Source: a virus. From it: a stretch of 31,072 nt of DNA. Made by a program: the position numbers and the translations under genes. Each line of letters starts with the position of its first letter. Position 1 is the first letter of the stretch. Shown in pieces: positions 18,081-31,072 of the stretch. The DNA lies in IMG/VR virus record IMGVR_UViG_3300025012_000232, positions 1 to 31,072 of that record; one strand, given 5' to 3'. The notes under the pieces were generated by a model. It ran no database searches. It was not told the DNA's origin and was given only the letters and a program-made list of their open reading frames with translations.

Positions 18081-18980
18081 TTACGCTACGTTGTGACCGT
18101 AGCACCATCTCCAGTCATTGAAAAAGTTGGAGCACCTGTAATATCCGGCCATGACAAGTGCCAAAGTCGAAGTGCTTTTATCCCTCAACAGTTCCAGAGG
18201 GATTCTGTCGAGCCAGATGAGCATATCTTTTCTCATCTGCGAGTCCATCAGAAACCAATTCTTCTCATCCGTGATCTGAACGGTTTCGATGACCTGGGGC
18301 TTCCACGACTTGTTGATCGGGTTGATTTCATTGTCCGCAGACTTAAGGTTGCTTTCGGTGATAACAACAGCCATTTCTCCGTTCCCGTTCCCGACCATAA
18401 GGCTGTCGGGAATGACCTCGAAAATGTCACCGTTATCATCCGTGAAAGCGCGCATCGCCTTGCGGGTTGCGACGTAGGAATCGTAGCCCAGCGTAGAGGT
18501 GCCGTAGTTTGATTGATTCGCCACACCCAAAACGCTGGAGACATGGGCCGTCGAACAGAGAGCCAAAGTGTCACCGCCAGCCGCATAAGTGGTATCGAAG
18601 GCGTGATTGAAAACATTGAAGCCGGTTTTTTCGCGGGTTCTTTTCGCGGATCGTGCAAATCCGCTGAAAAAACTCTTCATGATCCCGTACTGATCGTCAT
18701 CCCAGAGTTTGCGTTCGATGATGATCTTCTTTCCCATCTCGGTATGAGAAACCGTCTGTTTGTATCCCTGGGAAGGACTGACGCCTTCCTCAAGAACACC
18801 TTGGAACTGTTGAAAATCTCCCATTCCGTTAATAGACACGACGGTCTCTGTCGCCTTCGTTGATTTCTGAACTGAAAACAGAACAGGAATCAGAGAGACA
18901 TACTGCTTCAACCTTTCCAGATAGTGGGCCATTAATATCGGTTCTGCGATATCCGGCCAATCATTCGATGAAAGAGACAT
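18081..18980 (-). CDS. Major capsid protein (299 aa)
   Basis: A 299-residue protein in the usual slot after the scaffold, of a size suited to the HK97 fold and with the look of the Mu gpT-like class. Features are an N-terminal helix with aromatic residues, VSQTEMGKK-like strand (HTEMGKKIIIERKLWDDDQ) resembling the E-loop/spine transition, LALCSTAHVS in the middle, and TRKAMRAFTDDNGD followed by VIPDSLMVGNG, the conserved 'helix, d-x-x-G, P-x-x-L-x-V' signature of such capsids. AAGGAG lies seven bases before ATG 18980. Residues 166-177 are encoded by a 35-base stretch repeated exactly in a small accessory gene at 27236-27270. The protein is assigned by pattern and order; no structure comparison was done. 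Confidence 0.8.
   Translation of the reverse strand: MSLSSNDWPDIAEPILMAHYLERLKQYVSLIPVLFSVQKSTKATETVVSINGMGDFQQFQGVLEEGVSPSQGYKQTVSHTEMGKKIIIERKLWDDDQYGIMKSFFSGFARSAKRTREKTGFNVFNHAFDTTYAAGGDTLALCSTAHVSSVLGVANQSNYGTSTLGYDSYVATRKAMRAFTDDNGDIFEVIPDSLMVGNGNGEMAVVITESNLKSADNEINPINKSWKPQVIETVQITDEKNWFLMDSQMRKDMLIWLDRIPLELLRDKSTSTLALVMAGYYRCSNFFNDWRWCYGHNVA
18451..18485 (-). repeat. 35-bp segment of capsid gene repeated at 27236-27270
   Basis: This stretch encodes YDSYVATRKAMR in the capsid protein and is identical over 35 bases to 27236-27270, in the same orientation and reading frame. Beyond the exact part, six of the next eight bases on the left-codon side (18486-18493) still agree, so the homology extends over about 43 bases with two mismatches. 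Confidence 0.95.
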
Positions 18981-19979: not shown

Positions 19980-20734
19980 TAGTAAGTTCTGTAATTTTTC
20001 AGAGCGCTCTTGACACTCACGCCCGCGATCTTTGCCTTTTCGACGATTTTGGCATAAATCTCGGGATCCATATCATCAGGCGCTTCCGATATCGCCGGTA
20101 CTTTCGGCCTCGGCATCTTACCCGGTACTTTTACAGGGCCCCTGCCGTTGAACTTTCCAGGATGTAATTTTTCTACCGCCCTTTCGAGATAGTTTTCCTC
20201 GCTGGCGATAGCGTTTGCCGTATCCATGTATATTTTAAATGCCGGACTTCTCGGGTCTGGCAATTTGATCCCGTATTTTTCCTCAACAGCATTAGCCATT
20301 TCCCTTACATGCCTGTATGCTTCATCGCCTTTTTCTTTCTCATCTTTAGCCTTCTTTTCGGCTCTGTCTGATTCGACTTCTTTCCGTATCTCGATGAGTT
20401 CATCAATTACTTTTACGATCTCTTCATCCCCCTTCGCCGCCTCGCGTCTTTCCATCAGGGCTTTTATCTTCGCGCTTTCCTCGGGTGGTTTTACCGGCGC
20501 CGGGGGTTCGGAAGCCGTAGCCTTCGCCCTCATTATTTCCGCAATTTGCTCGCGTGAATATTCCACTCCTTCAATTTCGATAGTGTCGTCAGGTTCAGGA
20601 GGTTTCGGGTCGTCCTCGTCCTTGACCTCTTCTTCGACACCGAGTTTCGCTATCCCGTCCGAAATACCTTCTTCGATCTGATCGTAATCCCCGCCTTCGT
20701 CAACTACGGTATCTTCGTCGTCGTTGATTTTCAT
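19979..20734 (-). CDS. Scaffolding protein (251 aa)
   Basis: A very acidic N-terminus (DDEDTVVDEGGDYDQIEEG, then EEEVKDEDDP), a Pro-rich linker (PPEPDD, EPPAPVKPPEE), a long charged helical middle (IKALMERREAAKGDEEIV to about 150) and a basic C-terminal region (VKVPGKMPRPKVP ... KNYRTY). This charge order, acidic front, coiled middle and basic helix end that binds the capsid, is characteristic of podoviral scaffolds. The gene lies before decoration and major capsid genes. GGAGG precedes ATG 20734. Scaffold is removed or cleaved during maturation in known relatives; no protease gene is visible next to it. Confidence 0.75.
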   Translation of the reverse strand: MKINDDEDTVVDEGGDYDQIEEGISDGIAKLGVEEEVKDEDDPKPPEPDDTIEIEGVEYSREQIAEIMRAKATASEPPAPVKPPEESAKIKALMERREAAKGDEEIVKVIDELIEIRKEVESDRAEKKAKDEKEKGDEAYRHVREMANAVEEKYGIKLPDPRSPAFKIYMDTANAIASEENYLERAVEKLHPGKFNGRGPVKVPGKMPRPKVPAISEAPDDMDPEIYAKIVEKAKIAGVSVKSALKNYRTY

Positions 20735-20749
20735 TGTGCCTCCATGATT

Positions 20750-26821: not shown

Positions 26822-27217
26822 TCATTTTACCGGTACGAATCTATGCGTTGTCGTTGATCCGCAGACAAGGCATTTGAAAAAGCACCAATAGTATCTTCCC
26901 CCCTCTCTTTTTCGCCTATGTACCGGTTTTAATTTGCGGCCGCAATGATCATAGGCATATTCGAATCCGATTGGGACGGTCTGTGGCGATAATGTTATAG
27001 CTGTTTGCGTAGATGGGCGGAATAGTTTTTTAATACCTTCCCATATTCCTCGTCCCCATGTGTACAGACTTCCCCAAAAACCCTTTAAACCAACGGTTCG
27101 CGGCCTCGAAAGTGCGGATTCGTTCTTTATCTGAATCTTCGCAATTTCCACCCTTGACTTGGATTTTTCAAATAATGCTCTGTCAAAATCATAATTGCTT
27201 TTTCTGTTGATTTTCAT
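26822..27217 (-). CDS. Basic protein with C-terminal Cys motif (131 aa)
   Basis: The first 95 residues are basic and include a Trp/Gly-rich stretch (GFWGSLYTWGRGIWEGIKK). The C-terminal 40 residues have YDHCGRKLKP, WCFFKCLVCGSTT and a final basic HRFVPVK, giving Cys spacing that could hold one zinc ion, as in zinc-ribbon domains of nucleic-acid-binding proteins. A strong AAGGAGGT precedes ATG 27217, and the start overlaps the upstream stop (ATGA). Family unknown. Confidence 0.55.
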   Translation of the reverse strand: MKINRKSNYDFDRALFEKSKSRVEIAKIQIKNESALSRPRTVGLKGFWGSLYTWGRGIWEGIKKLFRPSTQTAITLSPQTVPIGFEYAYDHCGRKLKPVHRRKREGGRYYWCFFKCLVCGSTTTHRFVPVK

Positions 27218-27507
27218 AGCACCTCCTTAAGGGCACGCATCGCCTTGCGGGTTGCGACGTAGGAATCGTAACTCAGCGATGGCTTGTTTTTAACAATATA
27301 TCCATTTTTGTTTATATGCACACCTTTCATCATAAATTTTCCCGTAGTAGGAAAGCCATTCCTGGGGAAATTTTGAAAGGCTTTCTTTAATTTTTTAACC
27401 ATCTTGCGTCTCTTTCTTTTCTTTTTAAGCCATTTAGTAAATAGATCCCACTGGTCATTAGCCTTCTTTATCTTTTCCTCTAACTTACCGAGATTAATTA
27501 TAGTCAT
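27214..27507 (-). CDS. Small basic protein ending in a capsid-derived segment (97 aa)
   Basis: I start at ATG 27507 with GAGG seven bases upstream; an in-frame GTG at 27519 would add four residues. Residues 1-50 are helical and very basic (KWLKKKRKRRKMVKKLKKAF). Residues 80-91 are YDSYVATRKAMR, encoded by a 35-base stretch identical to the major capsid gene (18451-18485) and in the same frame; the protein ends six residues later (ALKEVL). The final codons double as the ribosome site of the next gene. Such a shared piece suggests recombination with the capsid gene, or a deliberately copied capsid peptide. Function unknown. Translation is likely but not certain. Confidence 0.55.
   Translation of the reverse strand: MTIINLGKLEEKIKKANDQWDLFTKWLKKKRKRRKMVKKLKKAFQNFPRNGFPTTGKFMMKGVHINKNGYIVKNKPSLSYDSYVATRKAMRALKEVL
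27236..27270 (-). repeat. 35-bp copy of capsid-gene segment
   Basis: Exact match over 35 bases to 18451-18485, in the same strand and reading frame. On the 5' side of the coding direction a further six of eight bases agree (27271-27278 against 18486-18493). The copies lie 8.8 kb apart. A match of this length in frame is not expected by chance. Confidence 0.95.
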
Positions 27508-27512
27508 TTTGT

Positions 27513-27610
27513 TCCTCACTGCACTTCATGTCAACGCAACGCTTCACTCGCCTTCGCCTGACACTCCGAGGGAGCGGAGTTGACGATCCACCGCAGGCTG
27601 TCCTCACTGC
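27513..27610 (-). repeat. 10-bp direct repeats around a structured, GC-rich 78-bp segment
   Basis: TCCTCACTGC occurs at 27513-27522 and again at 27601-27610. Between the copies the sequence is more GC-rich than its neighbours, has an inverted pair ACTCCG/CGGAGT around a 6-base loop and a wider GTCAAC/GTTGAC pair, and on the minus strand contains several GGA triplets. A 37-codon GTG frame (27607 to 27494) crosses it with an SD-like GGAGGG ahead, but its Arg-rich product is unconvincing and it overlaps the next gene. It may be an insertion footprint or a leader. Confidence 0.45.
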
Positions 27611-27720
27611 ATCCCTCCAGCCCGCATCTGCCAGAAAACCCATAGCCAGAACGCCGTGACAGCGGACACCATGAATAAAAATCCTACCGCGTTCCAGATA
27701 TCCTTCGTCCTATCTTTCAT
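27604..27720 (-). CDS. Single-span membrane peptide after csrA (38 aa)
   Basis: ATG 27720 overlaps the CsrA stop by ATGA and the frame ends at TGA 27604. The peptide has a charged N-terminus (MKDRTKDIW), one hydrophobic Trp-rich segment (AVGFLFMVSAVTAFWLWVFW) and a short end. The tight coupling to the CsrA-like gene supports translation. No known family. Membrane location is a prediction from composition. Confidence 0.5.
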   Translation of the reverse strand: MKDRTKDIWNAVGFLFMVSAVTAFWLWVFWQMRAGGMQ

Positions 27721-27914
27721 TTTCCGCTACCCCTCAGCTTCTTTTCTTCATGGATCAATTCCGTCCGTATGACGATGACCTTTTTCTTGTCAGCGTCAAT
27801 GCAAATTTTTATCCCCCCATTGCTGCCGATATCCTCACACGATATAGTAAACTCCGTTGGCTCCGTGACGCGAAAAGTGATACTCTCTTTTACGTTTCGG
27901 GATAGGATCAGCAT
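27717..27914 (-). CDS. csrA: CsrA/RsmA-family RNA-binding regulator (65 aa)
   Basis: The 65-residue product matches the CsrA layout: MLILSRNVKESITF at the N-terminus (E. coli form MLILTRRVGETLMI), a central beta region, and KKVIVIRTELIHEE at residues 44-57 corresponding to the APKEVAVHREEIY end with the RNA-contacting Arg kept. L4 and R6 are present; position 7 is Asn instead of Arg. CsrA dimers bind GGA motifs in mRNA leaders and change translation or stability, controlling carbon metabolism, motility and biofilm in bacteria. The start overlaps the preceding small gene by seven bases. In a phage it could redirect host translation or act on phage mRNAs. Confidence 0.85.
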   Translation of the reverse strand: MLILSRNVKESITFRVTEPTEFTISCEDIGSNGGIKICIDADKKKVIVIRTELIHEEKKLRGSGK

Positions 27915-30368: not shown

Positions 30369-31072
30369 GTCTTGCCTCCGGTTGTAAAGAATTCCTTGTA
30401 TTTTTCCGCTTCGTATGCGCCTTTCGTCAACTCGATTATTTTTTTAACAGTAACCGTCTCAGGTGTCTTCCTCTGGTCCATCCATGCCCGGACTCCGCCT
30501 TCACAAGCTCCGGTTATGACTCGATATGACCTGATCGCGTCTCTCTTTGTTACAACCGTATCGAGTTTCCATTTTTTGAACTCGGACGGATCACGGTTGC
30601 CGATTTTAAATAGCAGGCCGTCTCTTGCTTCTCGCAGGGTCTTTCCGTGCGAAAACACTTCGCCATCTGTGACGAGATAAGAAATCTCTGTCTTGCCGCA
30701 AATCTTGACATGAGCCACGGGTCCGCGTTGAGATATGATTTCTGCCAGGATTCCGTCAGCGAAAGAAAATCCCGCTTTTGCAAACGATTTTAACAGAAGA
30801 TCCTGGCAACTCAGTAATGCCTTGTCATTATTTGTTTTTACAGAAGAAAAGTCACCGCTTGCGTCGATGGAACCGCCGACATTTTCTAATTTCGGAAACG
30901 CTGTCTTCGTGTCGCTCCCGAATGCGTAGATGGAACCGCCGACATTTTCTAATTTCGGAAACGCTGTCTTCGTGTCGCTCCCGCGTGCGTCGATGTAACC
31001 GCCGACATTTTCTAATTTCGGAAACGCTGTCTTCGTGTCGCTCCCGCGTGCGTAGATGGAACCGCCGACATT
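30365..31072 (-). CDS. Repeat-solenoid protein with conserved C-terminal domain, 5' end outside window
   Basis: An open frame runs from the right edge to TGA 30365, 235 residues visible; the ATG at 30718 is internal and not the true start. The first part is a tandem repeat of 21 residues, NVGGSIYARGSDTKTAFPKLE, split here as NVGGSIYARG and SDTKTAFPKLE, three full copies plus a partial one. A Gly-Gly, hydrophobic, Leu pattern per unit suggests a leucine-rich-repeat or beta-solenoid fold. The C-terminal part (KICGKTEISYLVTDGEV, HGKTLREARDGLLFK, DAIRSYRVITGACEGG) resembles a domain I recall following such repeats in other phage proteins. Role unknown; repeat domains often bind proteins. Confidence 0.7.
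   Translation of the reverse strand, partial: NVGGSIYARGSDTKTAFPKLENVGGYIDARGSDTKTAFPKLENVGGSIYAFGSDTKTAFPKLENVGGSIDASGDFSSVKTNNDKALLSCQDLLLKSFAKAGFSFADGILAEIISQRGPVAHVKICGKTEISYLVTDGEVFSHGKTLREARDGLLFKIGNRDPSEFKKWKLDTVVTKRDAIRSYRVITGACEGGVRAWMDQRKTPETVTVKKIIELTKGAYEAEKYKEFFTTGGKT
30861..31072 (-). repeat. 63-bp in-frame tandem repeats
   Basis: Units start at 30861, 30924, 30987 and 31050 (spacing 63 exactly), continuing beyond the edge. The complete units differ only at four bases in three codons, while the other 18 codons are identical base for base. They encode 21-residue repeats of the solenoid protein. Confidence 0.95.

Follow-up and report, generated by a model that had tools for sequence, protein, structure and literature searches.

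A segment of the major capsid gene recurs in frame near the end of a small accessory gene in a phage genome

The capsid gene and the accessory genes

The window, that is, the whole stretch of DNA analysed here, is an entire virus record of 31072 bases. It carries a major capsid gene and, closer to its right end, two overlapping accessory genes. The features concerned are the following.

18081-18980, minus strand: major capsid protein, Mu gpT-like (by profile: PF10124, 3.3e-11; phrog_371, 1.4e-14; PDB 9jod, 1.6e-12)
18439-18493, minus strand: probable donor stretch in the major capsid gene, with the exact core at 18451-18485 (repeat search, family alignment)
26822-27217, minus strand: next gene, an orphan of 131 aa carrying two pairs of the C..C type towards its end (open frame, searches)
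27214-27507, minus strand: small accessory gene, 97 aa, orphan, with a very basic long predicted helix followed by a capsid-like C-terminal helix (open frame, GAGGA-type ribosome site upstream of the ATG, AF2 model)
27215-27230, minus strand: AAGGAGGTG, immediately following the copied stretch, with the ribosome site of the next gene and an ATGA in which stop and start overlap (sequence)
27224-27278, minus strand: extended similarity to the capsid gene, 87% over 55 bases (ungapped extension)
27236-27270, minus strand: exact copy of capsid codons, 35 bases, YDSYVATRKAMR (repeat search, codon comparison)

The capsid protein belongs to the Mu gpT-like family, scoring 43.5 bits with PF10124 against a curated cut-off of 20.1, and phrog_371 also matches; its single-sequence model was useless (pLDDT 35). 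The single-sequence AF2 model of the 97-residue protein, which is of moderate confidence and counts as weak evidence, places helices at residues 6-45 and 80-96 with a disordered middle between the basic helix and the terminal one (mean pLDDT 71.5, pTM 0.32). This protein matches no capsid profile and its model consists of two helices only, so that we do not class it as a capsid protein. No relatives of it were found in viral contigs, phages or plasmids, nor by Pfam or phrog profiles, and the 131-residue product of the next gene has none in viral contigs.

Several other elements of the window were noticed. Just upstream of the accessory genes lies a phage-encoded CsrA-like protein (27717-27914, minus strand; Pfam CsrA 2.4e-05, just below the curated cut-off; phrog_9500 7.9e-4), the end of which is overlapped by a frame of 38 residues, part of them strongly hydrophobic (27604-27720, minus strand), possibly a small membrane protein. 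The translation start of the 131-residue gene (27206-27226) resembles that of a putative scaffold gene (20723-20743), both of the form GGAGG..ATGAAAATCAAC, at 86% over 21 bases. Tandem 63-base units in at least three copies occupy the right end (30855-31072) and run off the contig, encoding on the minus strand repeats like NVGGSIYARGSDTKTAFPKLE; the assembly probably broke within them.

An exact repeat of 35 bases in a common frame

A repeat search of the window found that bases 27236-27270 are identical to 18451-18485 at all 35 of 35 positions, as a direct repeat. Both copies lie on the minus strand and are translated in a common reading frame as YDSYVATRKAMR. With its surroundings, the copy in the small gene reads LSYDSYVATRKAMRALKE and that in the capsid gene LGYDSYVATRKAMRAFTD. 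The ungapped extension reaches 55 bases at 87% (18439-18493 and 27224-27278), and blastn returned the same repeat as 46 bases at 93%. These results reproduce the 35-base identity and the shared frame reported in the preliminary description, as well as its claim that homology continues past the core, although similarity outside the core is marginal. The same description had placed the capsid-like peptide at the C-terminus of the small protein. It does lie near the end, but six further residues (ALKEVL) follow it.

This repeat is not due to chance. With the right-end tandem repeat left out, no other direct repeat in the window exceeds 17 bases, and the longest per sequence in 60 order-2 Markov simulations was 13-19 bases; set against these values, a repeat of 35 bases must be real. 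Neither blastn nor a scan with the 35-mer found a third copy in the window, the second-best site for the 35-mer matching at 20 of 35 bases. That the repeat is an assembly artefact is very unlikely. The sequence is indeed a metagenome contig, but a wrong join between direct repeats would delete or duplicate the intervening 8.8 kb rather than add a short copy. Moreover, the capsid gene continues undisturbed to either side of the repeat, and the spacing between the small gene and the next one is normal.

To estimate how common such repeats are, we used as controls 75 loci of at least 8 kb (1.2 Mb); the adjoining DNA methyltransferase had served to draw 80 phage loci for this purpose. In this sample, non-random because most of its loci were drawn through the methyltransferase, dispersed exact direct repeats of at least 35 bases occurred in two of the 75, both just before start codons. 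A peptide 10-mer was shared between separate open frames in 14 of the 75, many of these frames not being real genes. Five of the 14 were aligned: two were paralogue-like (L050, L076), one was a repeat of start regions (L082), one was unconvincing as a DNA repeat (L049), and in the last the repeat was local and stood where the contig ends (L087). None of the control repeats that were inspected linked an internal part of a structural gene with a gene unrelated to it. This kind of copying is thus uncommon, yet one case is unsurprising across very many scanned windows. We found nothing to the point in the literature on short phage duplications.

Direction, edges and age of the copy

The copied peptide aligns with the stretch LSExxL...M..F.DDxGxLxxVxPDxLxVP of the gpT-like family, in agreement with the earlier placement of it in the conserved helix before PDSLMV. 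Capsid relatives, about 25% identical at best, align on both sides of the copied segment. In addition, the copied end of the small gene has a GC content of 58%, against 32% in the gene body. The fit of the capsid segment to its family on both sides and this step in GC make copying from the capsid gene to the small gene the well-supported direction.

Codon comparison showed 11 codons to be identical between the two genes, synonymous sites included. Codon choice, and not the peptide alone, is thus shared, which points to recent copying of DNA. With 11 identical codons, a GC step and a donor in its native family context, the stretch has the features of a recent intragenomic partial duplication. 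Identical synonymous sites would also fit a common DNA or RNA element, for instance a binding site of the neighbouring CsrA-like protein, and ANGGA follows both copies, as ACGGA and AAGGA directly after the core. We consider such an element very improbable: AAGGA is simply the ribosome site, there are only two copies and one of them is mid-gene, they fold differently and without a stable or common structure (z-scores 0.12 and 0.66), and no Rfam match was obtained.

All seven mismatches of the 55-base stretch fall outside the 35-base core. Directly after it come two synonymous changes (capsid/small gene: CGC/CGT and GCT/GCC), and beyond these F/L, T/K and D/E; before it stands G/S. The differences are not restricted to adenines, which tells against reading the two copies as the template and variable repeat of a diversity-generating retroelement, where differences are adenine-directed. 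Similarity outside the core is marginal when the extension score is set against random codon-aligned pairs (P ~0.013), and P falls to ~0.0004 if one treats the flank lengths as chosen. The GGA part of it may be forced by the AAGGAGG ribosome site of the next gene. These edges would be compatible with a copy that is old, with a donor that differed slightly, or with copying of 35 bases only, between edges that are alike by accident.

The edges also bear on whether the tail came from the present capsid gene or from that of a related co-infecting phage reading LSYDSYVATRKAMRALKE. The edge differences include synonymous changes, and the S of the small-gene copy, where the capsid has G, is the family majority residue at that position (LSE...). 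We regard such a donor as unlikely, given that the core is identical to the present capsid over 35 bases and that no capsid of this kind was found in viral and genome contigs. Searches in viral contigs with the small protein, the capsid, the terminase, the portal and the next gene returned no relatives, and neither did the capsid and terminase in genome contigs. The exact 35-mer is absent from other viral contigs, a degenerate pattern of the copied peptide has no match in them, and a 67-base stretch had no relevant match in phages and plasmids. Capsid, terminase and portal are all distant from the searched databases, the portal lacking a tblastn match in phages, and the virus looks like a member of a poorly sampled phage lineage.

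Altogether, the copy of capsid sequence is real, and we favour, with a probability of about 0.6, a short and probably recent ectopic event that left a recombination scar. Part of the major capsid gene of this phage, 35 bases for certain and at most ~55, would have been copied without crossover to a site ~8.8 kb away, where an accessory gene rich in AT has its 3' end. The mechanism we infer is most likely a switch of replication template, or else recombination at short homology, while phage DNA was being synthesised or repaired. The insert would have fallen by chance in frame, just ahead of the ribosome site of the next gene, leaving the donor capsid intact and yielding a small protein that ends in a capsid-derived helix, for which we infer no function. 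The preliminary description had proposed both a scar and a recent event, and both agree with the data. It had also raised ongoing gene conversion, which may account for an identical core with differing edges; a single copy, its edges alike by accident, would give that pattern too. Against a recent scar count the flanks, slightly more alike than random coding pairs, and the finding of no comparable coding-to-coding event among the inspected control repeats. The two synonymous changes after the core would fit a copy of greater age, or one taken from a donor that differed slightly.

Possible function and known systems

The frame of the insert is weak evidence of selection. The core, read directly, has no stop in any of the three forward frames, so that chance alone would put a third of the copies on that strand in frame. 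In favour of a selected capsid mimic, the frame and the family-conserved helix are kept, and the model gives the tail a helix of its own (residues 80-96). It might bind capsid, scaffold or portal, or act as a decoy for a host capsid sensor, while the very basic helix might bind nucleic acid or membrane; PMC9712102 describes a host immune system that a capsid protein triggers directly. We think such a mimic quite unlikely. What was copied amounts to a small piece of a folded domain, the identical synonymous sites leave little time for visible selection on the peptide, and no relatives were found that would show conservation of the tail. Still more doubtful is the specific version in which the capsid helix, grafted on a small basic protein, docks on capsid subunits or occupies a host capsid sensor while gene conversion keeps the copies matched. 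If the tail is selected, the phage would have built a capsid mimic out of its own capsid gene, which would be a simple way to gain anti-defence activity or control over assembly. If it is a scar, a small fusion gene has been caught near its birth, with an accessory protein gaining a ready-made helix.

Illegitimate or relaxed homologous recombination in phages, a source of mosaicism, likewise involves short-homology exchange able to yield gene fusions; relaxed recombination by Rad52-like recombinases is treated in PMC3945230. The exchange described here differs in that it apparently took place within one genome, covers only 35-55 bases and left the donor intact. None of the scanned genes of the window was recognised as coding for a recombinase. 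Compared with Mu gpT-like capsids (PF10124, phrog_371; solved as 9jod and 8rkc), in which the copied peptide corresponds to the stretch before the PDxLxVP strand, the small protein has only 12-18 residues and no capsid fold. The dispersed leader repeats of three control loci (L057, L090, L082) are likewise exact or near-exact, ~35-45 bases long and close to a start codon. In those loci, however, the repeat lies at or just before start codons in both places, whereas here one copy lies in the middle of the capsid gene.
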